Shown piece after piece: positions 10,769 to 57,466 of a DNA stretch of 64,000 bases. The position numbers and the translations under genes were made by a program. Location: contig NZ_OCNH01000002.1 in NCBI RefSeq assembly GCF_900230225.1, positions 1 through 64,000 on the forward strand. Reading direction: 5' to 3'. The notes under the pieces were generated by a model. That model did not search any database and was not told where the DNA came from. It worked only from the letters and a program-made list of their open reading frames with translations. The stretch's first letter is position 1. Each line of letters begins with the position of its first letter. The DNA comes from Spirosoma fluviale (GTDB lineage Bacteria; Bacteroidota; Bacteroidia; Cytophagales; Spirosomataceae).

Positions 10769-10823
10769 TAACGCGGGTGAAAACCCGCCACTATAAATTA
10801 AATCGCGGTTTTAACCCGCGTTA
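10769..10823. repeat. Palindromic hairpin pair between tauE-like and persulfide dioxygenase genes
   Basis: The left arm 10769-10788 and right arm 10805-10823 are inverted copies of TAACGCGGGTxAAAACCxGC with one substitution and one indel. The left arm also folds on itself (GCGGGT, GAAA loop, ACCCGC) and the right arm has CGCGG/CCGCG. The end of the right arm supplies the TAA stop of the exporter gene (10821-10823). There is no U-run, so it is more like a REP/BIME element than a classic terminator. Confidence 0.75.
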
Positions 10824-11618
10824 GAATATCTCCCGGATAAGCATATAAACTGCTACCACCAGGACAAACCAGCCAAAGCCTTTTTTGAGCTTATCGGGTG
10901 GTACGAACTGAGCCGAGTACATGCCAATGAAGATCCCGATAATGGATAAACCCGTAAAGGGAAGCAGAAAATTCCAGTCAAGCTTCGTATGTTGAATATC
11001 ACCCATAAATCCAACGAACGAATTGACCGCAATGATCAGTACGGAGGTAGCCACGGCTCTGGGTATGGGCAGACCGGCCATTAACACCAGCATGGGCACG
11101 ATCAGGAAGCCCCCGCCCGCGCCAATCGTACCCGTCAATAAGCCAACCGCCAGGCCATCGAGCGCCAGACTACCGTACCGTGGACGCCCATCGGCGGCTT
11201 CGCCCTGCTCCGGGCGGTCGTTCTTGATCATGGCGCGGGCAGCAATGACCATTACGACGGCAAAGAAGTACAGAATGGCCTCACTTTTGGATAACGTAAA
11301 CCGCTCGAACTGAAAAAGCGGGTCGGGCAGGGCTGGAACCAGAAACCGCCGACTCAGATAGACGGATACAAATGACGGCAGCGCAAACGCAGCTGTTACG
11401 CGTAAGTCGACCTTCCGATGCCAAATGTGGTTCAGCGAACCGACCAGTGAGGTAGAGCCAACCACAAACAGCGAATAGGTAGTGGCCAGTACGGTAGGCA
11501 TATGAAAAACGTACACGAAAATAGGTACGGTCAGGATGGAACCGCCCCCACCTGCTAACCCAATTACCAAGCCAACAACAATGGCCGATGCATAGCCAAA
11601 CAACTCCTGTTCACTCAT
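10821..11618 (-). CDS. TSUP-family sulfite/sulfur-anion exporter (TauE/SafE)
   Basis: A 265-residue membrane protein with about eight hydrophobic segments and the duplicated TSUP signature: [17 protein letters not shown] near residue 20 and [19 protein letters not shown] near 160. Family members export sulfite, sulfoacetate or related anions across the inner membrane. It is first in a two-gene operon with the persulfide dioxygenase, so exporting sulfite or thiosulfate made by that enzyme is the simplest role. A Bacteroidota-type promoter and a 16-base palindrome sit directly upstream (11626-11656). Confidence 0.87.
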
Positions 11619-11625
11619 TATGAGG

Positions 11626-11656
11626 CAAAACTACATTTGTTTAGTCTATAGACTAA
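11626..11656 (-). promoter_or_regulatory. Promoter with overlapping 16-base palindromic operator
   Basis: On the minus strand TAGTTTTG (11626-11633) is an exact TAnnTTTG -7 box. About 19 bases upstream, in place of TTTG, lies TTAG, which begins the perfect palindrome TTAGTCTATAGACTAA (11641-11656). A palindrome spanning from the -33 box towards the -7 box is a classic repressor site, plausibly for a sulfide- or persulfide-sensing regulator. The regulator itself is not identified here. Confidence 0.6.
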
Positions 11657-11692
11657 TAAAAACGCCCTCTAATAGATGCATTAGAGGGCGTT
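11655..11692 (-). terminator. Rho-independent terminator of the amino-acid permease gene
   Basis: A perfect 12-base-pair stem (AACGCCCTCTAA at 11661-11672 and its complement at 11681-11692) with an 8-base loop. On the minus strand it is followed by TTTTTATT, and it lies 33 bases after the permease stop codon at 11725. Confidence 0.9.
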
Positions 11693-11724
11693 CAATGAAA
11701 TTCTACCTAAGCCAGTTGATTAAT

Positions 11725-13233
11725 TTACTGGTGATCTTCAGGTTTATTGAGATGACTATGTTTACGGCTGTACAGGAAGTATACGACAAGACCGAGCGAA
11801 CACCAGATCAGGAACGAGATTTTAGTATCGGTCCGCAAGTTATACATCAGGTATAAGTTTGCCAGGATGCCCAGCGTAGCCACGACGGGTAAGGCCGGGG
11901 TTTTATAAGGCCGTTCCAGATTAGGCTCCCGAACACGCAACAGCCAAACAGCTCCGCAAATCATGGCAAACGCCAGCAACGTACCCGACGAACATAGCTC
12001 CGACACTTTATCAATAGGAGTCAGCGCGGCAACGACCGATACAATGCCACCTACCAGAATCGTACTCTTCCAGGGCGTTTTAAACGTTGGGTGAATAGAT
12101 GCAAACAGGTTTTTCGGTAATAAGCCATCTTTGGCCATACCCAGGAAAATACGTGTCTGACCAAGCATCATTACCAGCATAACTGACGTCAGACCGGCAA
12201 TGGCCGCTATCGTAATCAGGTAAACAGCCCAAGTCAGTCCCTGGTCGGCAAAAGCCTGTGCTACCGGTGCTTTGAGGTCAAGAGCGTCGTATTTCACCAT
12301 ACCGGTCAGGACAAGCGAAACCAGAATATAAAGGACGGTACAAATAATGAGCGATGCGATAATAGCGAAGGGAACGTCTTTCTTTGGGTTGATGGCTTCG
12401 CCTGCCTGGGTCGAAACGGCATCGAAACCGATATACGCAAAAAACACGATACCGGCAGCGGTTACAATCCCGTTGAAACCATAATGCTGCTGTCCACCTT
12501 TGTCGATAACCGGCTCCGGAATGAACGGTGTCCAGTTGGCGGCATCGACGTAGAATGCACCGGCTACGATTACAAAAATGACCGTGGCTACTTTCAGGAT
12601 TACAATGGCGTTGTTAGTACTGGCAGCTTCTTTGATGCCTTTTACCAGTACGTAGGTTACGCACCAGACAATTAAGAAGGCTGGCAGGTTGACAGCAAAC
12701 GAAAAATCAGGGATGTTCTCGCCAGCGGCCCGTAGTTTTTCTGCTTTCTCTTGGGCTGTAACGGGGTCGTTCATCAACCAGATAGGCGGATTGATGCCAA
12801 GCAAATGGAGTAATTTTTCGAAATAACCCGACCAGCTTACGGCAACGGTTGTGGCCCCCATCATGTATTCAAGAATGAGGTTCCAGCCAATAAGCCAGGC
12901 GAAAATTTCCCCTACCGTACCATAAGAGTAGGCATACGCTGAGCCTTCTACCGGCAGGATAGACGCAAATTCGGCATAACAAAGAGCCGCAAATGCACAC
13001 GCCACTCCCGCCATAACAAACGCCAGTGCCAGTGCCGGCCCCGCCCATTCGTTAGCTGCTATACCGGTGAGCACGAATACGCCCCCGCCAATAACAGCGC
13101 CAATGCCAAGCGAGGTTAGTGACCAGCGGGTTAATACACGCTTAAGTTCACTCTTTTTCATGTCTGCCTCATAAGCCGCTAAAGGCTTTTTGCGCCAGAC
13201 ACTGGTATCAACAGGTTTTAGTTTGGTTTCCAT
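11725..13233 (-). CDS. APC-superfamily amino-acid permease (CAT-like)
   Basis: A 502-residue transporter with about twelve hydrophobic segments beginning near residue 37. The first, GIGAVIGGGVFVLTG, is the substrate-binding unwound helix typical of APC transporters. The start PVDTSVWRKKPLAAYEADM and the internal ITAAGIVFFAYIGFDAV segment match the cationic amino-acid transporter/YfnA branch. It would import amino acids with protons across the inner membrane. A strong terminator follows it; the promoter region upstream (13234-13310) has no clear consensus. Confidence 0.87.
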   Translation of the reverse strand: METKLKPVDTSVWRKKPLAAYEADMKKSELKRVLTRWSLTSLGIGAVIGGGVFVLTGIAANEWAGPALALAFVMAGVACAFAALCYAEFASILPVEGSAYAYSYGTVGEIFAWLIGWNLILEYMMGATTVAVSWSGYFEKLLHLLGINPPIWLMNDPVTAQEKAEKLRAAGENIPDFSFAVNLPAFLIVWCVTYVLVKGIKEAASTNNAIVILKVATVIFVIVAGAFYVDAANWTPFIPEPVIDKGGQQHYGFNGIVTAAGIVFFAYIGFDAVSTQAGEAINPKKDVPFAIIASLIICTVLYILVSLVLTGMVKYDALDLKAPVAQAFADQGLTWAVYLITIAAIAGLTSVMLVMMLGQTRIFLGMAKDGLLPKNLFASIHPTFKTPWKSTILVGGIVSVVAALTPIDKVSELCSSGTLLAFAMICGAVWLLRVREPNLERPYKTPALPVVATLGILANLYLMYNLRTDTKISFLIWCSLGLVVYFLYSRKHSHLNKPEDHQ

Positions 13234-13310
13234 GCAGGATGAATTAGAGTTTGGTGATTGTGTCGTTTAGGGAAATAATCTTAAGCAATCAGGCGAAATA
13301 TACGAAATAT

Positions 13311-13390
13311 AATGAGCGAATGATTGAATTAGCGAATGGGAGAATGGCAGGTGGCCATTTCGCATTCATTAATTCAATCATTCGCTCATT
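13311..13390. repeat. Long inverted repeat downstream of secDF
   Basis: A perfect 21-base arm at 13311-13331 (AATGAGCGAATGATTGAATTA) is mirrored at 13370-13390, and imperfect pairing continues inward through GCGAATG-type repeats almost to the centre. It begins 10 bases after the secDF stop (13401 on the minus strand). There is no U-run directly after the stem. It may act as terminator or as an mRNA 3'-end protector. Confidence 0.7.
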
Positions 13391-13400
13391 CAAAATTAAC

Positions 13401-16400
13401 CTAGGACTGCGAAGGACGGATCAACGGTTTTTTGTCTTTCTTCTCCTTCTTCGCCGTAAACTCTTCGGGTGTAGCCGGAGCGGCACTCGTGAAATCAGCC
13501 GGAATGGCATCGAACCCGGTTTTCTTCTCGGCAGCAATGGTTGTAGTTGGCGTGATCGTTTCTTTTTCCTGAGCACTAGTCAGGGCATCAACCACAATTG
13601 GAGTGGCCACGAACAAGGACGAATACGTACCAACGATAACCCCGATAAGCATGGCGAACGAGAAACCACGGATGGTTTCACCACCGAAGATGAACAGGAC
13701 CAACAGGACCAGAATGGTTGAGAAACCGGTTACTGCTGTGCGGCTCAGCGTGCTGTTCAGGGCGTTGTTAATAATTGTAGCGATGGTTTCTTTCTTGCCT
13801 TTGTTTTCAGCCAGATACTCACGTACCCGGTCAAAAACAACAACGGTATCGTTCATGGAATAACCCATAATCGTGAGCAGGGCTCCCACAAACGCCTGGT
13901 CAACGTCCAGCGAGAACGGCAGCAGGCCATTGAAGATGGAGAAGATAGCCAGGATGATCAACACATCGTGGAACATGGCCACAACGGCTCCATATCCAAA
14001 AGCCAGCTTCTTGAAGCGGATCAGGATATAGACGAATACCACAGCAACCGCCAGCAGGATAGACCATAAGGCCGAGGTCAGCAGGTCGTACGCGATGGTC
14101 GGACCAACTTTCTGTGAACTTTCTATCTTAGCCGGATTGCCTTTAATTGCGCTCAAGCCCTGATAGATGGTCGCTTCAGCTTTCTTGTCGGCTCCCTGCG
14201 AATTATCGTCCACCAGATAAGGTGTCGTTACTTTCACCTGATTGGCACCAATACCCGTACCACCGTAGGTTTTCACCTCGGGCGATCCGCCTAAAACGGT
14301 TTCCAGCGAGTTGCGCACATCTTCTGTACTAACAGCCTGCTCAAAACGAATTACATACGACCGGCCGCCTTTGAAGTCAACACCGAGGCCAAATCCTTTG
14401 AAAACGGCGGAGATGATACCCGCTGCGATAATAATGGACGAAACGGTGTAATACAGTTTCCGGCGCGATACGAAGTCGAAGTTAGAATCGGCAAACAGAT
14501 TCTTCGCCCAGGTTGAGCTGAACGACAGCGTTTTGCCATTGCGGATGTAGTATTCCAGCAACAGACGGGTGATGAAAATAGCCGCGAACAGGGATGTTAG
14601 AATACCGATGATGAGGGTAGTGGCAAAGCCCAGAATTAGACCTGTTCCGAAGATGAACAGAACGATACCCGTCAGGAAGGTCGTAACGTTGGAGTCGATA
14701 ATTGACGAAAGCGCGTTCTGGAAACCATCCGTAACCGACTGCTTGAACGTCTTACCCAGCGCCATCTCTTCTTTAATCCGTTCGAAAATCAGTACGTTCG
14801 CGTCAACGGCCATACCAATCGATAATACGATACCGGCAATACCCGGCATGGTCAGAACCGCTCCCAGCGAGGCCATTACGCCCATCAGGAAGAATAAGTT
14901 GACGATCAGGGCGATGTCGGCAATAAAACCGGCGCGGTTGTAATAGAACACCACAAAGGCCAGTACCAGTAAAATACCAATGATCGACGAGAGTACACCG
15001 GCGCTCACGGCTTCTGAACCCAGGGTAGCACCCACTACGCTCTCTTCAACGATGTTGGTTGGGGCAGGGAGTTTACCGGCCTTCAGGACGTTGGCCATGT
15101 CTTTGGTTTCTTCTACGGTGAAGTTACCCGAGATGCTCGAACGACCGTTCGGAATTTCGTTCTGTACGTTTGGCGCAGTGTATACCAGGTTGTCCAGCAG
15201 AATAGCTACCGGCCGACCTACGTTGGCGGCTGTCAGGTTTTTCCATTTACGGGCACCTTCGGGGTTCATGTTCATGGTCACCTCCGGACGCCCACGATCG
15301 TCATAGTCATTAGAGGCTTCGGTAATCACATCACCTTCGAGGGGAGCGCGTCCACCAGCTTTCTTTAGGAAATAAAGAGGCAGAATTTCTTTGCCATCCG
15401 TTGCTTTGAATGTCTTCCGATCCCAGGCAAAAAAAGCATCGGCCGGGAAAAGACCTTTTACTTCGGGTGCGTTCAGAACGGCATTAGCCCGGGCAGTATC
15501 TTTCAGGTAAACACCTAGTTGATCCTGACCAACAGGCAGGAATAACTGAGTCAGTGCGGTGCCCTGTGCCGAAGCGGCTGCCGTATCGTTTTTCGCCGTC
15601 GAATCTTTCTTGCTTCCTTGCGCCAGCTGCGACTCAAGGCTCGATGCACCTTGTGCGGCTGAACCCGTTGCCGGTGTTGTGGCGGTTGTTTTCAGAGCTG
15701 CTTTACGAGCGGCTTCCTGGCTGAGCAAATACGCGCCCATGCCTTCGATAGCCGGAGCCAGTTCGTTCAGGCGGTACACTTCGGTAAATTCAAGTTTAGC
15801 GGCACCGGTCAACAGGCGACGAATACGCTCGGGGTTATCAACACCGGGCAGCTCGATCTGGATACGGCCCGAACCCGGTAATCGCTGGATGTTCGGGTTG
15901 GCAACCCCAAACTTATCGACCCGCGCCTGGATGATCTGGAACGCCCGCGTCGTAGCGCCGTTCACTTCGTCGTTCAGCAACTTCCGCACTTCGGTGTCCG
16001 ACGATTGGTAGTTGATTTTGCTGCGGTTTGCGCTGGTAGCAAAAATAGAGGCAAGCTTAGTGTCTGGAGCCAGTTTCTTAAACTCACCGGCAAACAGATC
16101 GACAAAGCTGGTGCTGCTGGTTTTCTGATCTTCAACGGCCAGCTTCAGAGCCTCGTTGAATTTCGGGTCGCGGTTGTTGCCCGACAGACTGCGAAGAATA
16201 TCGGCAGGCGACACTTCGAGCACAACGTGCATACCGCCTTGCAGGTCGAGGCCAAGGCCAAGTTCGCGCTCGGTAACTTCCTGAAGCGTGCTCCCCAGAT
16301 AAATAGGCTCTTTCCAGAGTGAATCGAGATAGTGTTGCTTTTTGGTGCGATCAACTACGCCCTGTTTGTTGGTGGCATAGGCTTCGGCATCGGCTTTAAC

Positions 16401-16490
16401 GCCCCGCGAGACAAACGTGAACGACAGGAAATAGATGCAGATGGCTGCAATAACGCCTGTCAGAATGATAATTCCGGTTCTGTTTTGCAT
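13401..16490 (-). CDS. secDF: Protein translocase subunit SecDF (fused SecD and SecF)
   Basis: At 1029 residues this is the SecD-SecF fusion common in Bacteroidota. SecD comes first: one N-terminal membrane helix (residues 5-28), a large periplasmic P1 region (about 60-500) holding GLDLQGGMHVVLEV, and the five-helix bundle with GMAVDANVLIFERIKEE (about 590). SecF starts near 700 with GVDFKGGRSYVIRF and repeats the helices with GYSMNDTVVVFDRVREY (about 900). It uses the proton gradient to help finish Sec-dependent export. A P1 insertion (about 265-310) is rich in Ala, Ser, Gln and Lys and probably disordered. Confidence 0.96.
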   Translation of the reverse strand: MQNRTGIIILTGVIAAICIYFLSFTFVSRGVKADAEAYATNKQGVVDRTKKQHYLDSLWKEPIYLGSTLQEVTERELGLGLDLQGGMHVVLEVSPADILRSLSGNNRDPKFNEALKLAVEDQKTSSTSFVDLFAGEFKKLAPDTKLASIFATSANRSKINYQSSDTEVRKLLNDEVNGATTRAFQIIQARVDKFGVANPNIQRLPGSGRIQIELPGVDNPERIRRLLTGAAKLEFTEVYRLNELAPAIEGMGAYLLSQEAARKAALKTTATTPATGSAAQGASSLESQLAQGSKKDSTAKNDTAAASAQGTALTQLFLPVGQDQLGVYLKDTARANAVLNAPEVKGLFPADAFFAWDRKTFKATDGKEILPLYFLKKAGGRAPLEGDVITEASNDYDDRGRPEVTMNMNPEGARKWKNLTAANVGRPVAILLDNLVYTAPNVQNEIPNGRSSISGNFTVEETKDMANVLKAGKLPAPTNIVEESVVGATLGSEAVSAGVLSSIIGILLVLAFVVFYYNRAGFIADIALIVNLFFLMGVMASLGAVLTMPGIAGIVLSIGMAVDANVLIFERIKEEMALGKTFKQSVTDGFQNALSSIIDSNVTTFLTGIVLFIFGTGLILGFATTLIIGILTSLFAAIFITRLLLEYYIRNGKTLSFSSTWAKNLFADSNFDFVSRRKLYYTVSSIIIAAGIISAVFKGFGLGVDFKGGRSYVIRFEQAVSTEDVRNSLETVLGGSPEVKTYGGTGIGANQVKVTTPYLVDDNSQGADKKAEATIYQGLSAIKGNPAKIESSQKVGPTIAYDLLTSALWSILLAVAVVFVYILIRFKKLAFGYGAVVAMFHDVLIILAIFSIFNGLLPFSLDVDQAFVGALLTIMGYSMNDTVVVFDRVREYLAENKGKKETIATIINNALNSTLSRTAVTGFSTILVLLVLFIFGGETIRGFSFAMLIGVIVGTYSSLFVATPIVVDALTSAQEKETITPTTTIAAEKKTGFDAIPADFTSAAPATPEEFTAKKEKKDKKPLIRPSQS

Positions 16491-16628
16491 TGGTTTACAC
16501 AGGCCACGCCCGTGATTTGGCTATAAGTTACTAGGATAAGAAAAGATGGAGCCAGCGTAAAAGCATAGCTTCGGGAAATGAACAGCGGGTTCAGGTCAAT
16601 CGACGATCAATGACCTGTTCTGTGTAGA

Positions 16629-17012
16629 CTAGGGTGCGTTGGTGGCAATATGATGCCCGAACACATGCCTGAAAAAGGAGAAATAAAAATGCGGTAAGGT
16701 GAAAAAGCGTAGCAACGGAACGCTCAGCAGCAATAAAATGAGCAGAGCAGGGGCGGGCAGCAGAAAGGCACTCTGTCCCGACTCGCCCAATTGTGTGGCG
16801 GGAGTAACAACGGCTTCGAACTGAGCCGCACTCAACTTCGCCGATTCGGGGGCATCTGTCGCTTTTCCCGATTTAGCCTGTTCCGCAACCGCTTTGTGCA
16901 CTACAGGTGCTTTTGCCTGCGTCACATTGCCATGCCCCCAAACGGCTGTAAACAGCAGCAGGGTAGCCAGCACCAGGCTGGAAAAGCGTTGTATGACACG
17001 GGGTTGCTTCAT
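16629..17012 (-). CDS. Small secreted or membrane-anchored protein of unknown function
   Basis: From ATG 17012 (MKQPRVIQRF) the product is 127 residues, with an N-terminal signal segment (about residues 10-27), an Ala/Lys-rich middle and one strong transmembrane segment (LLPAPALLILLLLSVPLLRF, about 82-101). The short tail is aromatic and His-rich (HFYFSFFRHVFGHHIATNAP). I do not recognise the family. The longer reading with upstream starts would cross a palindromic site at 17036-17073, so the shorter start is preferred. It is divergent from nadC. Confidence 0.6.
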   Translation of the reverse strand: MKQPRVIQRFSSLVLATLLLFTAVWGHGNVTQAKAPVVHKAVAEQAKSGKATDAPESAKLSAAQFEAVVTPATQLGESGQSAFLLPAPALLILLLLSVPLLRFFTLPHFYFSFFRHVFGHHIATNAP

Positions 17013-17035
17013 ATTATTCCTTAGCGGATGACAAA

Positions 17036-17073
17036 TTTCGTACCATTTTTGATGGAATGCAAGTGGTACGAAA
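17036..17073. promoter_or_regulatory. Palindromic operator-like site between a small membrane-protein gene and nadC
   Basis: TTTCGTACCA at 17036-17045 and TGGTACGAAA at 17064-17073 are perfect 10-base inverted repeats separated by 18 bases, placing half-site centres 28 bases apart. The site is 24 bases upstream of the small membrane-protein gene and about 100 bases upstream of nadC. No regulator can be named. Confidence 0.5.
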
Positions 17074-17173
17074 CAGGATTTTAAAATGTTGAATTGATCG
17101 CTCCTGGTGTCAGCCCTTGAAGACCTTGACAAAGTAGAACCAGCCGTCAAAAAAAATCTAGTACCTTGCGCTC

Positions 17174-18007
17174 ATGAATCTACACGAGTTTATTCAGTTG
17201 GCCCTTGCCGAGGATGTCGGCGATGGCGACCATACATCTTTATCGACTATTCCGGCCGATGCGCAGAAGCGCGCCCGGCTGCTGGTGAAAGAAACGGGTA
17301 TCCTGGCGGGTGTCGAGGTAGCTAAAGCCGTATTTGCCGAAGTAGACCCCAACTTTGTGGTGGACGTTCTTCTGCACGATGGAGCCGCCATCACCCCCGG
17401 CGATGTGGTGCTGACCGTGAGTGGGAATGCCCGGAATATTCTAACTGCCGAACGCTTGGTGCTGAACTGCATGCAGAGGATGAGCGGCATTGCTACGCAC
17501 ACCCGCGAACTGGTCAACCTGCTGGAAGGCACACGCGCCAAACTCCTGGATACGCGCAAAACCACGCCTAATTTCCGGATTTGTGAGAAAATGGCCACGA
17601 AAATTGGTGGTGCCGTGAACCACCGGTTCGGGCTTTACGACATGATTTTGATCAAAGACAATCATGTCGACTATGCCGGCAGCATCGAAGCGGCCATTAC
17701 CAAAGCCGTGACCTATTTGACGGACACGGGCCGGAATCTACGCATTGAAGTAGAAACCCGAAACCGCGCCGAGGTAGAGGAAGTACTCCGGGTAGGACAG
17801 GTCGATGTGATCCTGCTGGATAACTTCGCTCCCGATGAAATACGGGATATGGTGCGGCTGATCAACGGTCGCTTCGTCACGGAAGCTTCGGGTGGCATTG
17901 ATGAAACGAATCTACGCGCCTACGCCGAAACGGGTGTCGATTATATTTCGTCCGGTGCGCTAACCCATCAGATCAAAAGTCTGGATTTAAGCCTGAAGGC
18001 GTATTAG
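17174..18007 (+). CDS. nadC: Nicotinate-nucleotide diphosphorylase (carboxylating)
   Basis: A 277-residue quinolinate phosphoribosyltransferase, which makes nicotinate mononucleotide from quinolinate and PRPP in de novo NAD synthesis. Visible signatures are the N-terminal LAEDVGDGDHTS, the active-site ARAKLLDTRKTTPNFR (about residues 117-132), the GGAVNHRFGLYDMILIKDNHV segment (about 143-163) and the C-terminal EASGGIDETNLRAYAETGVDYIS loop. Length is typical. The partner genes nadA and nadB lie about 35 kb away. A possible TACCTTG -7 box at 17162-17168 is only 5 bases from the ATG, so a leaderless transcript is possible. Confidence 0.96.
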   Translation: MNLHEFIQLALAEDVGDGDHTSLSTIPADAQKRARLLVKETGILAGVEVAKAVFAEVDPNFVVDVLLHDGAAITPGDVVLTVSGNARNILTAERLVLNCMQRMSGIATHTRELVNLLEGTRAKLLDTRKTTPNFRICEKMATKIGGAVNHRFGLYDMILIKDNHVDYAGSIEAAITKAVTYLTDTGRNLRIEVETRNRAEVEEVLRVGQVDVILLDNFAPDEIRDMVRLINGRFVTEASGGIDETNLRAYAETGVDYISSGALTHQIKSLDLSLKAY

Positions 18008-18018
18008 TTATTAGTTAT

Positions 18019-18100
18019 TGAGTTATTGGTTATTGAGTTGTTCGCTATTAGCAGATTGTTACGCATTCACGAATAACGAGTAACCATTAACCAATACTCA
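18019..18100. repeat. Imperfect inverted repeat between nadC and a convergent gene
   Basis: A TGAGTTATTGGTTATTG-like sequence from 18019 is mirrored by the end of the spacer to 18100, with several mismatches. The right end includes the TGA stop of the convergent gene. The left part also contains tandem TTATTAG/TTATTGA units (18004-18036). Confidence 0.5.
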
Positions 18101-18457
18101 TTTTGCTGGGTTCTCATCAATGCCTAACCGGGGTAGAGCCGGGTTGAGGACGCGGGGAACAACTTTGACCCGAAAAACGCGGGCACCCGCTACGTTAAAA
18201 TCACAGCTGTAAAAATCCCGCTGCTTCACGCCCCGATACACCGCCGTGTAATTGACCCTGGGTGGCCAGTTATTAAACGCCAATTCAGCTGTAATGGCAT
18301 CCACCGCTTTCCGAAGATTAGAGAAGAAAATGACCGTTGGCTCACGCTGACGTAACGTCGTTAAGGTCCCAACATGCTGAATCGTGACTTCGTAAATAAT
18401 ACGGCCACTTTGTTTGAGAATCGCCCTTTTGGGCGCTTTTTCAGGCAAATCGTTCAT
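18098..18457 (-). CDS. Hypothetical cytoplasmic protein
   Basis: The 119-residue product (from MNDLPEKAPKRA) has no signal peptide or membrane segment. It is rich in beta-strand and basic residues, for example GRIIYEVTIQHVGTL and RVFRVKVVPRVLNP. A start three codons earlier (18466) is equally possible. No family is recognised. A possible -7 box TAGTTTTG lies on the minus strand about 45 bases upstream (18503-18510). It is convergent with nadC. Confidence 0.6.
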   Translation of the reverse strand: MNDLPEKAPKRAILKQSGRIIYEVTIQHVGTLTTLRQREPTVIFFSNLRKAVDAITAELAFNNWPPRVNYTAVYRGVKQRDFYSCDFNVAGARVFRVKVVPRVLNPALPRLGIDENPAK

Positions 18458-18555
18458 ATATATCAATAATACGAAAAACTATTTGATTATTTTTCAAGGT
18501 CAAAACTAATTCAGGTACAACTTGGTTTTACCTACAACTATGCAAGATCAATCTG

Positions 18556-18590
18556 CCCGGCCACGCTCAAGCGGCCGGGTATTTTTGTTT
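18556..18590 (+). terminator. Orphan plus-strand terminator
   Basis: CCCGGCC at 18556-18562 pairs with GGCCGGG at 18573-18579, followed by a T-rich run (TATTTTTGTTT). No plus-strand gene lies between 18008 and this site; it could end a small RNA starting in 18458-18540 or be a leftover. Confidence 0.55.
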
Positions 18591-32856: not shown

Positions 32857-32932
32857 AATCTGAAAGTCGCAAACGAAAAGAAGGACCAACAAGCACTTGT
32901 TGGTCCTTCTTTTCGTTTGCGACTTTCAGATT
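32857..32932. repeat. 76-base near-perfect palindrome between convergent ROK kinase and murB genes
   Basis: Arms 32857-32893 and 32896-32932 are exact reverse complements over 37 bases with a 2-base centre. It starts at the base after the ROK stop codon and includes the last sense codon and TGA stop of murB (ATC TGA, minus strand, 32926-32931). Such a loop-less palindrome would form a very stable hairpin in mRNA and is unusual for a simple terminator; no long U-run follows. Confidence 0.95.
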
Positions 32933-35845: not shown

Positions 35846-35869
35846 ACTAGTCAGTAAGTGATTTTCTGC

Positions 35870-35902
35870 GCGGTCGGGTTCTCAAACCCGACCGCTTTTT
35901 TG
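35870..35902 (+). terminator. Rho-independent terminator of gmd
   Basis: 11-base-pair stem (35870-35880 with 35885-35895), CTCA loop and a run of six or more T. It lies 24 bases after the gmd stop codon. Confidence 0.92.
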
Positions 35903-35915
35903 TTCACTTTGTATA

Positions 35916-35948
35916 CAAAAAAAGCGTCGGGTTTAAGAACCCGACGCT
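35916..35948 (-). terminator. Rho-independent terminator of the Do-type protease gene
   Basis: 11-base-pair stem (35923-35933 with 35938-35948), 4-base loop and a T-run on the minus strand (35917-35922). It lies 27 bases after the protease stop codon. Confidence 0.92.
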
Positions 35949-35975
35949 ACTTACTGACTTACAACTTATCGACTA

Positions 35976-46539: not shown

Positions 46540-46643
46540 GTGTAGAGACGCAATACCTTGCGTCTGGCTAGCCCGGATGGTTTGGCTGACGCATAGGAAA
46601 ATATTGCCTATTAACAAAGACGCAAGGTATTGCGTCTCTACAC
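46540..46643. repeat. Inverted repeat of two identical 26-base hairpin arms
   Basis: Arms 46540-46565 and 46618-46643 are perfect 26-base reverse complements, 52 bases apart. Each arm includes its own hairpin: AGACGCAA, 4-base loop, TTGCGTCT. It starts directly after the glutamine-synthetase-like stop and ends 11 bases before the kinase start. The GTAGAGACGCAA core resembles short palindromic repeats I associate with other Bacteroidota and cyanobacteria; this is memory, not a search. Confidence 0.9.
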
Positions 46644-49622: not shown

Positions 49623-49636
49623 CTTTGACAAAGCAA

Positions 49637-50785: not shown

Positions 50786-50926
50786 GGTTTATTACACAGA
50801 TGGAACCGTCGAAGCAGATTCGCCGGGAAGGCACGGAGATTCACGGAGTTTTTAAGTGAGTCTATTTGATAAAGCAGTAAACGTAACTTATTTTGGTTCA
50901 TCACTTACATAAGCTCTTACACGACC

Positions 50927-51769
50927 ATGACAACCAGTATTGCTAATTCATTCGAAGAAGGTGTTCCGCCCGTTACCCCGCCTAAAAATGCGTATCCTGT
51001 CCTCTCGCAAATTTGGGTCTTAGTAGGTGTATTTATTCTGGCGCAGATACCCGCTGCCATACCGATGATTGGCTTGAAAGCCGCTGCCGATAGCTACGGG
51101 TTGCCCTTTCTGGATACCATCGGCCAAACGCTGGCTTATGCCCTTGGTATGATGCTCACCATCTGGTATGCCTTTCGGCAGCGGGGTAGCCGTGCTTTGT
51201 CTTTTGCGTCGGTTCCCATTCCGGCTTATCTGGTTTCGGCGGTCGGGCTGATAGCGATGGGGGTTCTGGCTGAGCCCATCGTAAGTGCTATTCCAATGCC
51301 CGATGCCGTGGAGGAACTTATACGAAAAACGTTTACCAAAAATGTTATTCTATCAGCCGTCATTGCTGCGCCCATTCTGGAGGAGATCCTGTTTCGGGGA
51401 ATTATTCTGGATGGGTTTCTAAAAAACTATCGCCCGACCAAAGCCATTATCTGGTCGGCGCTGATTTTTGGTTTCATCCATTTCATTCCAGCCCAAGCCC
51501 TGAATGCGGCTTTCATTGGTATTGCCTTTGGCTGGTTGTACTACCGTACCCGTTCGCTCACGCTCTGCATGTTTTTGCACTTTGTGAACAATGGCCTTAG
51601 CTCGCTCACATTTTTAAGTGATGAAGGGTTGAATATGAGCGAAAATACGACCCGCGAGTGGATGGGGAGTGATGTGTATTATGTGGCCTTACTGGTAGGA
51701 TGCGCGGTAGTTTGTGTCGTCTGTTATCGACTTTTGGACCGGATTTTGCCAAACGCTCAGGCTGTTTAG
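50927..51769 (+). CDS. CPBP-family intramembrane endopeptidase
   Basis: A 280-residue protein with about seven or eight hydrophobic segments and all CPBP motifs: PILEEILFRG (EExxxR, about residues 148-157), FGFIHFIP (FxxxH, about 184) and MFLHFVNN (HxxxN, about 217). These residues are needed for proteolysis of membrane substrates, as in prenyl-protein proteases and bacteriocin immunity proteins. It lies between the LytS kinase and its likely response regulator, so it could make or process a signal, or be a regulated target. Confidence 0.85.
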   Translation: MTTSIANSFEEGVPPVTPPKNAYPVLSQIWVLVGVFILAQIPAAIPMIGLKAAADSYGLPFLDTIGQTLAYALGMMLTIWYAFRQRGSRALSFASVPIPAYLVSAVGLIAMGVLAEPIVSAIPMPDAVEELIRKTFTKNVILSAVIAAPILEEILFRGIILDGFLKNYRPTKAIIWSALIFGFIHFIPAQALNAAFIGIAFGWLYYRTRSLTLCMFLHFVNNGLSSLTFLSDEGLNMSENTTREWMGSDVYYVALLVGCAVVCVVCYRLLDRILPNAQAV

Positions 51770-51868
51770 TTAATCTGTCCTTTGCTTACCAGTGGTCAAC
51801 GTCCTAAGATTATTCAATCTAACGTATTTTTTGTCGATTTAATGATTGTACTTCACCCTACATACGAA

Positions 51869-52096
51869 ATGAAAGCTAAACTCGGTAATCTTACTTTTGG
51901 TCCTAAAACACGTTGGAAAACCGCCGGACTTCTGGGGGCGCAGGCTTTATTGATTGGCCTGATGGTGTTGGCTAAGCACTATGGGCAGGCACCATCAACG
52001 TCCCTGTTTATCGTTATAAACATCATTATTATTCCCGCTCTCGCCCGACAGCTTTTTAAGGGTACCGGCAACGACATCGAAAATACGAATCAGTAA
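51869..52096 (+). CDS. Small membrane protein
   Basis: From ATG 51869 (MKAKLGNLTFGP) the product is 75 residues with two hydrophobic segments (about residues 18-35 and 42-60) and a short charged tail. It lies between the CPBP protease gene and the LytTR regulator, 3 bases from the latter, so it is probably translated as part of this operon. The extended frame from 51782 is less likely. Confidence 0.55.
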   Translation: MKAKLGNLTFGPKTRWKTAGLLGAQALLIGLMVLAKHYGQAPSTSLFIVINIIIIPALARQLFKGTGNDIENTNQ

Positions 52097-52099
52097 CCT

Positions 52100-52783
52100 A
52101 TGCCGCTAAACCTCCGCTGCATCGCCATCGACGACGAACCGATTGCGCTCGATATTATAAAAGCGCACGCCGGTAAAGTGCCGTTCCTTGAACTCAAACG
52201 CACCTTCGTGAATGCTTTCGAAGCGTTAACTTTCCTGAAAACCGAGCCCATCGACCTGATCTTTCTGGACATCAACATGCCTGATCTGACAGGGCTGGAC
52301 TTTGCACAGGTGGTTGGCAACAAGTCGCTGGTGGTGTTTACAACGGCCTATCCGGAGTATGCCTTGCAGGGTTTTGAACTAAGTGCGCTGGATTATCTGC
52401 TGAAACCCATCGCATTCGGGCGGTTTATGCAGGCGGCCAACAAAGCCTATGAACGCCTGTCGGGCGATTCGAAAAAGTCGCCCTTTGTTTTCGTCAAGGA
52501 CGGCTACGACTGGGTGCGAATCAATCTGGAGGAATTGCAGTACGTTGAATCGGAAGGTAACTACCTGACGTTTCAGGAAACGGGTAAGAAAGCCCTCACG
52601 CGCATGACCATTACAGAAGCCATCGAACTGCTCCCCGCCGATCAGTTCATGCGCGTTCATAAATCCTATATCGTTGCCCTCGATCGCATCGAGAAAATAG
52701 AGCGGCACCAACTCACCATCGGCAAAGCCCTGATTCCCCTTGGCGCTTCCTACCGCGATGAATTGCTGGAACGGGTGAAGTAA
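52100..52783 (+). CDS. LytTR-family response regulator
   Basis: A 227-residue regulator. The receiver domain (about 1-120) has FLDINMPDLTG (about 54) with the phosphorylation Asp and TAYPEYALQGFELSALDYLLKP (about 82-103) with the conserved Lys. The LytTR DNA-binding domain (about 130-227) contains YVESEGNYLTF and MRVHKSYIVALDRIEKIE. It would be the partner of the LytS kinase 1.3 kb upstream. Its last two codons and stop lie inside the palindrome beginning at 52775. Confidence 0.92.
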   Translation: MPLNLRCIAIDDEPIALDIIKAHAGKVPFLELKRTFVNAFEALTFLKTEPIDLIFLDINMPDLTGLDFAQVVGNKSLVVFTTAYPEYALQGFELSALDYLLKPIAFGRFMQAANKAYERLSGDSKKSPFVFVKDGYDWVRINLEELQYVESEGNYLTFQETGKKALTRMTITEAIELLPADQFMRVHKSYIVALDRIEKIERHQLTIGKALIPLGASYRDELLERVK

Positions 52784-52879
52784 AGTCTGGGCCAAGCTCC
52801 GGCTTGGCCATAGATATAATTAAAGTGAATTCGGGATTAGAAATGGCCAAGCCGGAGCTTGGCCCAGACCCTACTTCAC
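52775..52879. repeat. 36-base inverted repeat with nested hairpins over both gene ends
   Basis: Arms 52785-52810 and 52844-52869 are perfect 26-base complements (GTCTGGGCCAAGC...GGCTTGGCCA). Pairing extends outward through GTGAAGTA on both sides (52775-52782 and 52872-52879) with two mismatches, thus including the Val-Lys-stop ends of both the LytTR gene and nadB. Each 26-base arm folds on itself: GGCCAAGC, 4-base loop, GCTTGGCC. Confidence 0.92.
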
Positions 52880-54457
52880 ATTATCCAGATTAAAATGCAG
52901 TCCGCTGTTTTCGCGCCGGGCCATCGCCATTTTTATGACCAGGTACGCCACTTCGATCATGTTCCGGAGTTCGCAGATGGGGACGGATACTTTGGATTGA
53001 CGATAAAGTTCTTCGTGCTCCAGGTAGATTAGTTCGAGCCGGTCCATGGCCCGTTTCAAACGCCGGTTGGAACGGACGATGCCTACGTAGTTCGACATGA
53101 TCGACTCCAACTCTTTCTTCATTTCCGTCACCAGCACCAGTTCTTCGGGGTGGGTCGTGCCCGCGTCGTTCCAGTCGGGGATGTTGTCGGGGATAGCGGC
53201 CTGGTCGAGGAGTTCGACGGTTTTTTCGTACGCCCGATGCCCAAACACAACGGCTTCGAGCAGGGAGTTGGAGGCCAGTCGGTTAGCACCGTGCAGGCCT
53301 GTACACGAACATTCGCCAACGGCATACAGGAATTGAATATTGGTCTGGCCCCATTCGTTAACCCGGATTCCTCCGCAGAGGTAATGCTGCGCAGGAACGA
53401 CCGGGATGTAATCTTTCCGTAAGTCCAGCGCCAGGTGGTCGCGGCAGTAAGCCGTGATGTTCGGGAAATGCTCGATAAACTTCTCGTAATCGCAGTGGGT
53501 TACGTCGAGGTACACGTGCGGGTCACCGGCTTTTTTCATTTCAGAGTCGATGGCGCGGGCCACAATATCGCGCGGGGCGAGGGACAGGCGCGGGTCGTAG
53601 TTCTCCATAAACGTCTCGCCTTTCCGGGTTCGCAAAATCCCGCCAAAGCCCCGAACGGCTTCGGAAATGAGGAAATTTGGTTTTTTGCCCGGTTCGTAGA
53701 GGGCCGTGGGGTGAAACTGGATAAATTCCATATCCTTCCCGATTCCCTTGGCGCGGTAGGCCATCGCGATGCCATCGCCGGTGGCAATATTGGGATTGGT
53801 GGTGTTCTGGTAGATGTTGCCGATGCCGCCGGTAGCCAGCAGGGTCGTTTTGGCCAGGAACACCTCAACCTGGCCCGTCTGGGTATTCAGGACATAAGCA
53901 CCGAAGCATTTATTATCCGAATCGTACCGATGAACGGTTTCACCGAGCTGGTGGCGGGTGATGAGTTCAACGGCGTAGAAATGGGTAAAAATCTCGATCG
54001 ACTTCAGCGAATTCGCTTTTTCGAGTAAAGCCCGTTCGATTTCAGCTCCGGTAATGTCTTTGAAGTGAAGAATCCGGTAGTCGGAGTGGCCGCCTTCTTT
54101 GGCAAGGTCGTACTCTGTACCGCCGTGCTCCTTGTCGAAGCGGGTACCGTAGCTGATCAACTCCTGAATGCGCCCCGGCCCTTCGTTTACCACAATTTCG
54201 ACAATGTGCCGGTCGCTCAGGAAGTCGCCCGCTACCATCGTGTCTTCAATGTGTTTCTCGAACGAATCATCCTCCGACCACACGGCCGCAATGCCGCCCT
54301 GGGCATATTTGGTGTTGGTTTCGTCGGCCTGCACTTTCGTGATGACGCCGATGCGGACATCCTGTTGCAGGTTTTCGAAGTGCATGGCCAGCTTGGTGGC
54401 GTAACTCAGGCCCGCAATACCGGAGCCAATAACTAAGAAATCGAATTGATGGGGCAT
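52871..54457 (-). CDS. nadB: L-aspartate oxidase
   Basis: A 528-residue flavoenzyme that oxidises aspartate to iminoaspartate, first step of de novo NAD synthesis. FLVIGSGIAGLSYATKLA (about residues 6-23) is the FAD-binding motif, GGIAAVWSEDDSFEKHIEDT (about 55-74) the substrate loop, EFIQFHPTALY (about 252) the conserved active-site region and YAVGECSCTGLHGANRLASNSLLEA (about 388-412) the signature. It is 8 bases downstream of a PIN-like gene and co-oriented with nadA. Confidence 0.97.
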   Translation of the reverse strand: MPHQFDFLVIGSGIAGLSYATKLAMHFENLQQDVRIGVITKVQADETNTKYAQGGIAAVWSEDDSFEKHIEDTMVAGDFLSDRHIVEIVVNEGPGRIQELISYGTRFDKEHGGTEYDLAKEGGHSDYRILHFKDITGAEIERALLEKANSLKSIEIFTHFYAVELITRHQLGETVHRYDSDNKCFGAYVLNTQTGQVEVFLAKTTLLATGGIGNIYQNTTNPNIATGDGIAMAYRAKGIGKDMEFIQFHPTALYEPGKKPNFLISEAVRGFGGILRTRKGETFMENYDPRLSLAPRDIVARAIDSEMKKAGDPHVYLDVTHCDYEKFIEHFPNITAYCRDHLALDLRKDYIPVVPAQHYLCGGIRVNEWGQTNIQFLYAVGECSCTGLHGANRLASNSLLEAVVFGHRAYEKTVELLDQAAIPDNIPDWNDAGTTHPEELVLVTEMKKELESIMSNYVGIVRSNRRLKRAMDRLELIYLEHEELYRQSKVSVPICELRNMIEVAYLVIKMAMARRENSGLHFNLDNVK

Positions 54458-54465
54458 TGGTATTT

Positions 54466-54837
54466 TTATTTGGCGGGTCTGATGCGTAGTTGTTCATTAC
54501 TAAGTACAGAGAAACTGTTGACAAGCTCGTTTCCCTGGCTCATGATAACATCAATTACCCGTTCGGACTTTTCGGCACTATCCATTTTTAGTAGTCTAAC
54601 CAGCAATATACCGCAGTGAGCCATACGAAGTCGGTGGACAAGTTCACCGAAATCTTTGTCTTCAGTCAACAGAATAGACTGCCGGTCTACAGCGATTTGT
54701 AAAACTTGAGGGTCCGGTATACTAGAGAACGATTCTGCTATAGCAAGAACTGAAAAACCTTTCGCTCGTAATTGTTTAACAACGGCAAAATCAAAATTTT
54801 CATCAGCTACAAACGAGTAGTCATCCGGCTTGGGCAT
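54466..54837 (-). CDS. DUF5615-type PIN-like protein (toxin candidate)
   Basis: The 123-residue product (from MPKPDDYSFVADEN) has the compact PIN-like fold of DUF5615: VADENFDF (about residues 9-16) and LLTEDKDFGELVH (about 55-67) supply the acidic residues, with helices between. Relatives act as RNases and pair with DUF433 antitoxins. Its start overlaps the DUF433 gene end by 17 bases. It sits between nadA and nadB, with only 8 bases before nadB. A longer form from 54849 (MRLS) is possible. Confidence 0.85.
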   Translation of the reverse strand: MPKPDDYSFVADENFDFAVVKQLRAKGFSVLAIAESFSSIPDPQVLQIAVDRQSILLTEDKDFGELVHRLRMAHCGILLVRLLKMDSAEKSERVIDVIMSQGNELVNSFSVLSNEQLRIRPAK

Positions 54838-55051
54838 AGACAACCTCATTTTTTACTGTTTCTGACGCAAATAGCAAGCATGCATACAATGCTTCTTGTG
54901 TAACACGTGGATAAGATTTCAGTAGTTGTTCTATTGTCTCGCCGTTACCAAGCTTCTCTAAAACCAGATCAACGGGTACACGTGTACCCTTGATAACAGG
55001 CTTACCAAACATGATCGTTGGGTCGGATGTGATGTAGTCGCGCCAGTTCAT
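54821..55051 (-). CDS. DUF433 protein (antitoxin candidate)
   Basis: A 76-residue DUF433 protein. SDPTIMFGKPVIKGTRVPVDLVLEKL (about residues 9-34) is the typical opening, followed by ETIEQLLKSYPRVTQEALYACLLFA, a helix-turn-helix-like domain. DUF433 proteins are commonly found directly before DUF5615 PIN-like proteins and are taken to be antitoxins that bind the operator and toxin. The gene is 24 bases after nadA, which places the pair inside the nad operon. Confidence 0.88.
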   Translation of the reverse strand: MNWRDYITSDPTIMFGKPVIKGTRVPVDLVLEKLGNGETIEQLLKSYPRVTQEALYACLLFASETVKNEVVYAQAG

Positions 55052-55075
55052 AGTCTTTGGTTTAATACCCTTCGT

Positions 55076-56065
55076 TTACTTACTCAACTCCAGCATCCGC
55101 GCCACCGACTCATACGCTTTTAACCGCACAACCTCCGGCACAATGATTTCCGGCTGTTCGTAGAGCATGGCGTTATAGACCTTCTCCATCGTATTCATTT
55201 TCATGTACGGACACTCCGAACACGCGCAGGTATTGTTCTGAGTGGCCGGAGCCGGTATGATTTTCTTGTGCGGTACCGCCTGCTTCATCTTGTGCAGAAT
55301 ACCCGCTTCCGTACCCACGATAAACGTTTGCTCCGGGCTGTCGACCACGTATTTCAGCAAGGCCGTTGTGGAGCCTACGAAATCAGCTTCGCTCAGGATA
55401 TGCTCCTGACATTCGGGGTGGGCAATGAACTTCGCTTCGGGATAGTCTACCCGCAGCTTATGCAGTTTCTCCAGCGAAATGTCGATGTGAACGATACAGG
55501 CTCCATCCCACAGCACCATGTCGCGCCCGGTTTTCTTCGAGACGAAACGGCCGAGGTTGGCATCGGGTGCGAAGATGATTTTCTGGTCTTTGGGTAAACT
55601 CTCGACAATTTTCAGCGCATTTGACGAGGTAACGATAATGTCGGACAACGCCTTGATCTCGGCCGAGCAGTTGATATACGACAGCACGATGTGGTCGGGG
55701 TACTGCGCTTTGAACGCTGCAAACTTATCGGCGGGAGCGGAGTCGGCGAGGGAGCAGCCCGCGTTGAGGTCGGGGATAACGACTTTTTTCTCCGGCGATA
55801 AGATCTTAGCTGTTTCACCCATGAAATGAACGCCACAGAACACAATCATGTCGGCGGGGGTGGCGGCTGCCTGCTGGGAGAGGCCAAGACTGTCGCCAAT
55901 GTAATCGGCTATATCCTGAATAGCGCCATCGACGTAATAATGGGCCAGAATAACCGCATTCTTTTCTTTCTTGAGCCGGTTAATTTCGGCGACTAAATCT
56001 ATGTCTTCCGCAACAGGTTTGTTTACGTACCCGACGCGTTGAACTTCTTCCAGGAGTGCTTCCAT
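55076..56065 (-). CDS. nadA: Quinolinate synthase
   Basis: A 329-residue iron-sulfur enzyme that condenses iminoaspartate with dihydroxyacetone phosphate to quinolinate. [23 protein letters not shown] (about residues 36-58), [14 protein letters not shown] (about 75) and [10 protein letters not shown] (about 99) match NadA. The [4Fe-4S] ligands are Cys in GVHF-adjacent FCG, HPEC and the CACSECPYM end. ATG 56065 was chosen, matching family length; an upstream extension is not supported. It begins the operon nadA-DUF433-DUF5615-nadB. Confidence 0.95.
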
Positions 56066-56240
56066 TGATGGTTTTACAAGCGGTTTTAAACTAAACAAGG
56101 AATGAGGGCAAAATGTCACGTTATCAGCCAATCCACCCGTAGATTCTGTCGATGCTGCTACAGCCTGGTGGACGGTGTGCGTTAGCCGCATAACGACAAA
56201 CTATTTGTAGCCGGGGCGAATTTCAGTAAATCAACCGGGC

Positions 56241-56273
56241 TTTCAAACAACGAGAGGTATTTGATTAGTTTTG
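56241..56273 (+). promoter_or_regulatory. Promoter of the ferredoxin-reductase-like gene
   Basis: TTTC at 56241-56244, 21-base spacer, then TAGTTTTG at 56266-56273, an exact TAnnTTTG -7 box. Transcription would begin about 13 bases before the ATG at 56293. Confidence 0.55.
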
Positions 56274-56292
56274 GGATAAAGAAGACCTGTTC

Positions 56293-57348
56293 ATGACCGA
56301 CGATTTTCTCAAACTCCGGATCATCCGTATTTATTCAGAGACGTCAGATACCAAAAGCTATTTTCTTGAGCCGGTAGATGGACGGCCCGTTCCGCACCGG
56401 GCCGGGCAGTTTCTGACGTTGATTCTACAGCACGGCGGGCACGAAGTTCGCCGGTCGTATTCGCTGAGTTCGGCCGCCCATGAGCCTCTTCGCCTGACCA
56501 TCAAACGGGTAGAAAATGGGGCAATTTCGCGCTATCTGCTCAATACACTCCGCGTTGGCGATGAGCTGAAAAGCCTGTACCCGGCCGGGCGGTTTATCGT
56601 TGATTCTACCGCGCCGGGTGATTTGGCGCTGTTGGGCGCGGGGAGCGGCATAACGCCTTTGTTCTCGATAATCAAAGAGGTTTTACGGGCAGAGCCGAAC
56701 CGACGGATCACTCTGCTCTACAGCAGTCCCAGCGAGCGGGCCATTATTTTCCGAACGGAGCTGGATGAGTTACAAAAGCAATATCCCGACCGCTTTCGGC
56801 TGATCTATCTGCTCAGTAATCCATCCGATGACTGGAACGGTCTGCGCGGGCGGCTCAACAACGTCATGCTCGAACGACTATTGCCCGAACTGGTCGGTAC
56901 CTCAGACCCAAAAACGCTTCAGTTTTATATCTGCGGGCCGGGGGATTACATGCGGATGGCTCAGTTTACGATTGTTTTCAGCGGCTTTCGCCCCGATCAG
57001 ATTCGGCGGGAAGATTTCGTTATCAAACCGGTTGTTTTAACGCCCCCGCCCGCCCTGGCACAGGATCGGACGATACTGCTACGTATCGGGCGACGGGAGG
57101 GAGAACCCCGTGAGGTTGAGATTCAGGTGCCAGCCTACAAATCCATTCTACAGGCCGCTCTGGATGAGGGTATTCATTTGCCTTACAGTTGCCGGGGTGG
57201 TCGCTGTTCCACCTGCGTGGCCCGCTGCACATCGGGAAGTGTCCACATGACCATCAACGACGTCTTGACCGAACGCGACCTGAGCGAAGGCTGGATGCTG
57301 ACTTGTACCGGCTACCCGGAAAGTGATGGCGTAGTGATTGAGGTATAA
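56293..57348 (+). CDS. PaaE-like flavin/NADPH and [2Fe-2S] oxidoreductase
   Basis: A 351-residue electron carrier. An FAD domain (RRSYSLSSA, about residues 57-65) and NAD(P)-binding domain (LLGAGSGITPLFSIIK, about 115-130; FYICGPGDYMRMA, about 214) are followed by a plant-type [2Fe-2S] ferredoxin domain (about 265-351) with CRGGRCSTCVARC and LTCTGYP, giving the four Cys. Such proteins deliver electrons to ring-hydroxylating or other monooxygenases (PaaE) or desaturases. No oxygenase lies next to it. Its stop codon is inside the palindrome 57341-57466. Confidence 0.88.
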   Translation: MTDDFLKLRIIRIYSETSDTKSYFLEPVDGRPVPHRAGQFLTLILQHGGHEVRRSYSLSSAAHEPLRLTIKRVENGAISRYLLNTLRVGDELKSLYPAGRFIVDSTAPGDLALLGAGSGITPLFSIIKEVLRAEPNRRITLLYSSPSERAIIFRTELDELQKQYPDRFRLIYLLSNPSDDWNGLRGRLNNVMLERLLPELVGTSDPKTLQFYICGPGDYMRMAQFTIVFSGFRPDQIRREDFVIKPVVLTPPPALAQDRTILLRIGRREGEPREVEIQVPAYKSILQAALDEGIHLPYSCRGGRCSTCVARCTSGSVHMTINDVLTERDLSEGWMLTCTGYPESDGVVIEV

Positions 57349-57466
57349 CGTTAACGTATCGCGGTTCTTTAGTCCGCGTAGCCGAAGGCTAATTTGACAA
57401 TGAAACGATTTTTTAAGCCTGTCGGCTACGCGGGCTAAAGAACCGCGATACGTTAACGTTATACCT
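57341..57466. repeat. 43-base inverted repeat including stop codons of both convergent genes
   Basis: Arms 57341-57383 and 57424-57466 are reverse complements over 43 bases with one mismatch that still pairs as G-U in RNA, and 5 more pairs within the 40-base loop. Each arm also has CGCGG...CCGCG that can fold alone. The left arm starts inside the last codons of the reductase gene and includes its TAA; the right arm includes the TAA of udk. Both genes end in AGGTATAA. Confidence 0.95.

Follow-up and report, generated by a model that had tools for sequence, protein, structure and literature searches.

We examined a 64,000-nucleotide stretch of the Spirosoma fluviale genome (hereafter the window: the first 64 kb of contig C8, NZ_OCNH01000002.1, in a 7.8-Mb genome of 18 contigs), in which five intergenic spacers carry inverted repeats. 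The original prediction compared them with REPINs, that is, inverted doublets of repetitive extragenic palindromic (REP) sequences spread by REP-associated tyrosine transposases (RAYTs). This reading is largely right, given the family copies, the inverted doublets, the outward-facing tags, the linkage of one family to a RAYT and the differences between species. Taken together, the results make it very likely that several unrelated families of REP doublets, as REPINs or derivatives of them, occupy these spacers at the 3' ends of genes, each family probably spread by its own RAYT.

All five inverted repeats lie where they had been placed, and each is named here by the first coordinate of its spacer. 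The arms are 17 nt with 94% identity in 10769 (10769-10785/10807-10823), 31 nt with 87% identity in 35849 (35873-35903/35915-35945), 26 nt with 100% identity in 46540 (46540-46565/46618-46643), 46 nt with 87% identity in 52775 (52766-52811/52843-52888), and 45 nt with 98% identity in 57341 (57341-57385/57422-57466). When folded as single-stranded DNA, each of the five beats 200 of 200 dinucleotide shuffles (z from -4.8 to -15.6). For 35849 the minimum-energy fold is a cloverleaf that contains two separate hairpins, and for each of the other four spacers it is approximately one long hairpin. The arms had also been said to fold singly, and on reading the sequence we found self-complementary stems in all five spacers: 8 bp in 46540 and 52775, 11 bp in 35849, about 6 bp in 10769, and just 5 bp in 57341. 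By simple gene calls, 10769 and 46540 each lie between two minus-strand genes, and 35849, 52775, and 57341 each lie between convergent genes. An Rfam search of the window gave no match.

The arms were assigned to five palindrome families: A at 46540 (AGACGCAA-N4-TTGCGTCT), B at 52775 (GGCCAAGC-N4-GCTTGGCC), C at 35849 (GTCGGGTT-N4-AACCCGAC), D at 57341 (CGCGG-N9-CCGCG), and E at 10769 (CGCGGGT-N4-ACCCGC-like). The spacers had been described as differing in sequence and not being copies of a single element. The five families are indeed distinct; what needs correction is that four of them, A to D, recur elsewhere in the genome. Whole-genome BLAST gave 125 pieces for A, 63 for B, 24 for D, 13 for C, and 3 for E with self counted, numbers that are not copies because a palindrome matches both strands; for 10769 this leaves two weak matches besides itself. 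A search of the whole genome for the exact A unit GTAGAGACGCAANNNNTTGCGTCT gave 70 matches, 35 on each strand (reversed control, 0), and the true sites are slightly fewer since at least two palindromes (C4:811498 and C10:34764) match on both strands. Motif scans and a census of inverted repeats were run on 2.06 Mb (C8 1-1264000 plus C4 1-800000). Here family A has 48 units, arranged as 19 doublets and 10 singles, family B 12 units with 5 doublets, and family C 4 units with 2 doublets, all against 0 units in shuffled sequence; family D has 6 units with 2 doublets, and family E 2 units forming 1 doublet, both its own, each against 1 shuffled unit. Repeated D doublets also appear as several full-length two-strand matches (for example C10:912742, C8:932353, and C13:53448).

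The anatomy of family A is the clearest. Unit centres are intergenic in 47 of 48 cases, and the outer ends of the 19 doublets are GTAG in 38 out of 38, with no GTAG at the inner ends shown. The layout is GTAG-AGACGCAATACCTTGCGTCT, a spacer often containing CCGGATGG and GCTGACGC, then an inverted unit ending in CTAC; the distance between units varies from 16 to 107 nt. The 4-nt loops of paired units are fully complementary in 11 of the 19 doublets versus 3.5 expected by permutation, although the loop is left free in a single hairpin. In family B the outer ends read GTC[TC]GG in 10 of 10, which is not a GT[AG]G tag.

A RAYT accompanies family A in this genome, as the REPIN comparison implied: the gene at C8:279392-279928 is flanked by A units at 279369 on one side and at positions 279948 and 280049 on the opposite side. 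This gene type was recovered with profile A1, which was built from 11 RAYTs and run on eight genomes picked for high A counts; it detected A-type RAYTs in seven of them, all but G002 (G numbers denote the Spirosoma genomes compared, L numbers the RAYT-like or HUH loci fetched). In these genomes, picked for many A copies, A units were found at nine out of nine fetched A-type loci: on both sides in eight (L322 from this genome, L318, L305, L300, L312, L301, L313, and L308) and on one side only in L317, also from this genome. The flanks were read for 9 of 14 A-type genes, the remaining five being in G005, G010, and G025 and two in G021. An earlier scan of 37 loci based on PF01797 (Pfam Y1_Tnp), a profile with 8 matching genes in this genome, all of them scanned, found no unit of families A-D; that negative was wrong because PF01797 had missed the A-type RAYTs, and we rejected PF01797 as a full RAYT catalogue.

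Across 36 Spirosoma genomes the number of A matches ranges from 0 to 195 per genome, with at least one in 29. Near-full-length A-type RAYTs (E <= 2.7e-88) number 14 in 11 genomes. Ten or more A matches occur in 10 of the 11 genomes with an A-type RAYT versus 1 of the 25 without (Mann-Whitney P = 5e-5, with kinship between genomes ignored); G001 and G029, which have more distant RAYT relatives, were counted among the latter.

Judged from its sequence, the A-type protein qualifies as a RAYT (TnpAREP) by its HUH motif, its downstream tyrosine, and its relation to TnpAREP. The MPNHxH and YIxxNP motifs are present in 8 of 8 aligned A-type RAYTs, with YIxNNP exact in 3 of the 8. The best structural relative is the solved TnpAREP 4er8 (E = 1.1e-11 with profile A1 and 0.0023 with profile A3). 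Foldseek also ranks 4er8 best by fold (E = 1.1e-3), which adds weak support since the query was a low-confidence model with a mean predicted local distance difference test score (pLDDT) of 58. The REP-associated tyrosine transposase model NF047646 is matched by seven out of seven representative RAYTs, three above its 80-bit cut-off and four below.

RAYT-like genes of other Spirosoma are likewise flanked by REP pairs, and the REPs differ by RAYT type. E-like REPs adjoin four of six 'MHEPY' RAYT loci (L252, L254, L270, and L275), the remaining two (L255 and L260) carrying GCGGACATCCTGTCCGC; C-like REPs adjoin three of four 'MGLRNR' loci (L264, L266, and L273, not L276). Two further pairings link this genome with others: CCGACCG...CGGTCGG REPs adjoin L034 (this genome) and L267, and GACAGCA REPs adjoin L035 (this genome) and L259. 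Upstream of the RAYT at C7:146385 (L311, this genome) lies a CACGGGTTTCAACCCGTG pair, and a relative of this RAYT in G034, L297, is flanked by GCGGACTGAAGTCCGC on one side and GCGGACTTTAGTCCGC on the other; the D stem resembles the GCGGACTTTAGTCCGC of L297. The expected RAYT association extends beyond family A to C-like and E-like REPs in relatives, as a similarity only to D, and not, in the loci scanned, to B.

Several related loci were observed in the course of this search. Three RAYTs of three types lie within 8.5 kb at C8:279392-287819, together with A, GACAGCA, and CCGACCG REPs. Three 'YNRG'-type HUH genes of other Spirosoma are adjoined by perfect hairpins with 32-39-bp stems, on both sides at L314 and L319 and on one side at L304. 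A Y1 transposase gene at C4:450862-451203 (L030) has dense CATAGGGC-type palindromes on both sides.

We propose that each family would have spread within genomes as single-stranded DNA by the action of its own HUH/tyrosine RAYT, which would recognize a small hairpin and, at the outer foot of that hairpin, a short tag, which in family A is GTAG. The B element presumably originated in a comparable way. Copies would persist mainly directly after stop codons, the place of least harm, and some of them may then act as hairpins at mRNA 3' ends, with 35849 as a pair of intrinsic terminators.

Next, we compared the orthologous spacers in relatives. The gene pair around the glutamine synthetase (glnA) spacer, which holds 46540, is present in eight named relatives. 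It is occupied by doublets of GTAGAGAC-type palindromes in Spirosoma sp. 48-14 and profusum, by a decayed single palindrome in validum, and by other inverted repeats in telluris, endophyticum, spitsbergense, and LacPavin; the spacer of 341R is 2 nt. G009 has another inverted repeat there. For 10769 no counterpart hairpin was found in G009 or G027. The 52775 spacer (LytTR/nadB) holds a related doublet in G009 and a single hairpin in LacPavin (taken to be G027), and the element is absent from the 16-nt spacer of Fibrisoma. Similarly, the 57341 spacer (Fer2/Udk) holds a related doublet in G009 and a single E-like hairpin in LacPavin/G027; telluris, validum, and endophyticum have other palindromes, and the spacer is 13 nt in profusum and 20 nt in terrae. 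At 35849 both hairpins and their T-tracts align in G009 and G027, a terminator-like conservation. These spacers indicate that four elements change quickly between species and that 35849, with its REP-like stems, is conserved as a double terminator. The original prediction held mobility to be inferred rather than seen, and this caution stands: occupancy and copy number differ between genomes, and the spacers compared showed no insertion, excision, or clean empty site.

An automatic classing of hairpin turnover covered 104 of 118 gene pairs in G009 and 49 of 63 in G027, the rest being shorter than 25 nt in both genomes or too long. In G009 and G027, respectively, hairpins were homologous in 7 and 3 spacers, partially so in 3 and 1, different in 9 and 4, present only here in 13 and 9, only there in 8 and 4, and in neither in 64 and 28. 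These counts overstate replacement, as 35849 and 88708 were scored as present only here and are homologous in both relatives by alignment. Different hairpins at one place number 9 in G009 versus about 4.0 expected (calculated from the counts with homologous and partial cases left out); in tandem spacers alone this excess shrinks to 5 versus 2.9, so part of it merely reflects the preference of hairpins for gene ends.

A number of observations weigh against the RAYT-spread REP doublet reading, beginning with the conservation of 35849 and the lack of any observed insertion or excision. With regard to family A, G005 has an A-type RAYT and no exact A match, G002 has 18 A matches and no A-type RAYT was found in it, and L323 (G007), distantly related to the A-type RAYT, showed no A unit. 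The eight genomes searched with profile A1 were chosen for high A counts. The A-type RAYT has the lowest NF047646 score (45.9 bits against the cut-off of 80; E = 5.2e-12) and no Pfam match, and none of the 8 NF047646 matches in this genome is above the cut-off. With regard to the other families, no E-type 'MHEPY' RAYT was found in this genome by PF01797, profile A1, or NF047646 searches, and no C-type 'MGLRNR' RAYT by PF01797 or NF047646 searches. The D stem resembles the REPs of a RAYT type present in this genome but does not match them exactly. No B unit was found in the RAYT-like loci scanned or among the stems listed for further such loci, and no RAYT was found for B.

Could the five spacers simply be independent intrinsic or bidirectional terminators, one set at each gene end, that look alike because terminators are hairpins? 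A case for this is 35849 (35849-35959). Here the hairpins at 35870-35895 and 35923-35948, enclosed by an 11-nt outer inverted repeat, have G+C-rich stems of 11 bp, and six T follow each stem in the direction away from its own gene, so that each of the two convergent genes has a T-tracted stem, on both strands, conserved in G009 and G027. Long inverted repeats in general are also commonest in convergent spacers (74/155, versus 163/664 tandem and 20/162 divergent). However, a terminator scan of the 35849, 46540, 52775, and 57341 stretches found nothing at 46540 or 57341 and at 52775 one site with a poor tail (52845-52864), and independent terminators do not account for A and B as dispersed multi-copy doublets with fixed outer tags, A accompanying one RAYT type. 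The original prediction would have given way to single-copy terminators conserved in relatives; this fits 35849 only in part, and the other four elements differ, shrink, or vanish in relatives. We therefore regard independent terminators as an improbable explanation for the set, and retain REP doublets at gene ends as the preferred one.

The remaining elements can be delimited as follows. The A doublet (46540-46643) lies just 3' of the glutamine synthetase gene and consists of a plus-strand unit at 46542-46565 with GTAG at its left, outer end and a minus-strand unit at 46618-46641 with GTAG at its right, outer end. The B doublet consists of a plus-strand unit at 52785-52809 (GTCTGGGCCAAGC-TCCG-GCTTGGCC) and its inverted minus-strand partner at 52845-52869, between convergent genes for a LytTR regulator and an FAD-binding protein. 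In 52775 the outermost 9 nt of both arms lie inside the two genes and match because both genes end in GTGAAGTA, an ending shared by both Fibrisoma genes. Copying of the arms through both stop codons was considered and dropped: both Fibrisoma genes end in GTGAAGTAA without the element, which suggests from the sequence that the outer 9 nt are probably not part of it. The D arms lie at 57341-57385 (plus strand; core CGCGGTTCTTTAGTCCGCG at 57360) and 57422-57466 (minus strand; core at 57429), and their outer 8 nt contain the stop codons of the genes at 56293-57348 and 57459-58076, respectively. Overlap of REPs with stop codons, like that of 57341 with both stops, has been described (PMC3733652). 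The E inverted pair (10769-10823, no strand assigned, as for 35849) has units at about 10772-10788 and 10804-10820 with minus-strand genes on both sides, and overlaps the stop codon of the gene at 10821-11618.

The list of five inverted repeats is sound as far as it goes and incomplete: the window holds other long inverted repeats, among them 32857-32932, 13311-13390, and 58439-58516. In the 2.06 Mb, a long inverted repeat is found in 257 of 981 spacers of 30-500 bp versus 4 of 981 shuffled ones. In 102 of the 163 tandem cases the repeat begins no more than 12 nt before or 15 nt after the upstream gene end. Among arms of at least 21 nt, 167 of 212 are not self-folding, and these non-self-folding arms are periodic at 7 bases (0.381 at lag 7 and 0.366 at lag 14, versus 0.276 and 0.266 in random intergenic sequence). 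No excess specific to Spirosoma was found in the 32 of 80 loci used: the frequency per 10 kb is 1.13 in Spirosoma (9 loci), 2.01 in Rudanella/Fibrisoma/Fibrella (3), 1.16 in other Cytophagales (2), 0.62 in Larkinella (6), 0.15 in Pedobacter (3), and 0.46 in Bacteroides and kin (9). Within the window, 32857-32932 lies between convergent genes and has two perfect arms of 37 nt around a 2-nt loop; it clusters with no other repeat, and the inverted repeats there in G009 and G027 differ. The 58439-58516 repeat is A+T-rich, and all named Spirosoma compared have one near the same gene end, mostly with another sequence. A hairpin with 20-nt arms at 59273-59317, in the spacer adjoining 59327-60853, has counterparts that differ in sequence in LacPavin and other named Spirosoma.

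Such repeats raise the question whether local inverted copies, made by template switching or hairpin processing during replication with no transposase and kept because gene ends tolerate them, could explain the spacers as well. Consistent with this, 104 of the 257 long inverted repeats cluster with no other, the loops of paired A units match each other, and the 4-nt loop of the A unit at C8:374057-374080 has the opposite orientation to that of the unit aligned with it in G009, as hairpin processing could produce. But local copying predicts neither dispersed copies with an outward GTAG in every A doublet nor the linkage of A to one RAYT type, and we consider it very improbable as a general explanation; it may still hold for non-palindromic arms and for the homogenization of arms. 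Spread of REP doublets by RAYTs thus remains the preferred reading for the families.

A broader idea, which we put forward tentatively, is that gene ends in Spirosoma may be "hairpin sockets": a strong hairpin after many stop codons would profit the cell, unrelated mobile hairpins would replace one another there, and the position would be kept and the sequence not. REPINs of several RAYTs and inverted repeats with heptad periodicity may interchange in this way, and several RAYTs may read tags other than GTAG. The non-self-folding arms with their heptad period make the idea worth testing.

Much of this has been described in other bacteria. Inverted REP pairs, outward tags, REPs matched to RAYTs, the 3'-end location, and the overlap with stop codons are already known from four papers (Bertels and Rainey 2011, PMC3116915; Di Nocera et al. 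2013, PMC3733652; a 2018 survey of HuH endonucleases, PMC6006769; Nunvar et al. 2013, PMC3686654), to which the following comparisons refer. The REPINs and RAYTs of PMC3116915 are alike in being inverted REP doublets foldable into one long hairpin, with one REP group per RAYT and singlets too; that system is from another genus with other sequences, whereas Spirosoma has at least six REP types and three RAYT types together and a variable A spacing. The GTAG-tagged REPs of PMC3733652 resemble family A in having GTAG outside the stem, dimers of opposite orientation, and positions near 3' ends. In that paper Bacteroidetes are listed with CGTC repeats, and GTAG repeats are reported from Proteobacteria, Cyanobacteria, Chloroflexi, and the PVC group, whereas family A is a GTAG family in a Bacteroidetes genus. 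Bacteroidetes RAYTs with REPs have already been described (PMC6006769). In that classification, TnpAREP subclass 2.4 has NH[IFV]H, WQ, and YIxNNP motifs and long or 'double foot' REPs and is abundant in Cyanobacteria and Bacteroidetes; the A-type RAYT fits this subclass by motif, and 'double foot' REPs (GTAG at one end, CTAC at the other) have the same form as C4:811498 and C10:34764. Further RAYTs found here agree with the motifs of subclasses 2.7 and 2.6. In contrast to the GT[AG]G feet of that paper, several REP feet here are GTAA, GTAC, GTAT, or GTCT. The REP classes of Pseudomonas fluorescens and Stenotrophomonas (PMC3686654) are alike in that RAYT-REP classes occur side by side with uneven copy numbers between strains. 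That work describes different REPs beside orthologous RAYTs, whereas the 'MHEPY' RAYTs with two REPs in different species were grouped here by type, not by orthology. In the accessible literature on REPs and RAYTs we did not recognize this set of Spirosoma families, the GTAA, GTAC, GTAT, and GTCT feet, or the replacement of one hairpin family by another at a given gene end.

We conclude that the analysis documents a multi-family REP/RAYT system, including GTAG doublets and their RAYT, in a Bacteroidetes genus. It also offers matched pairs of RAYTs and hairpins for the study of how tag and stem are read. If it is true that unrelated hairpins interchange at gene ends, Spirosoma would provide a natural experiment on whether bacteria recruit mobile hairpins as mRNA 3' ends.

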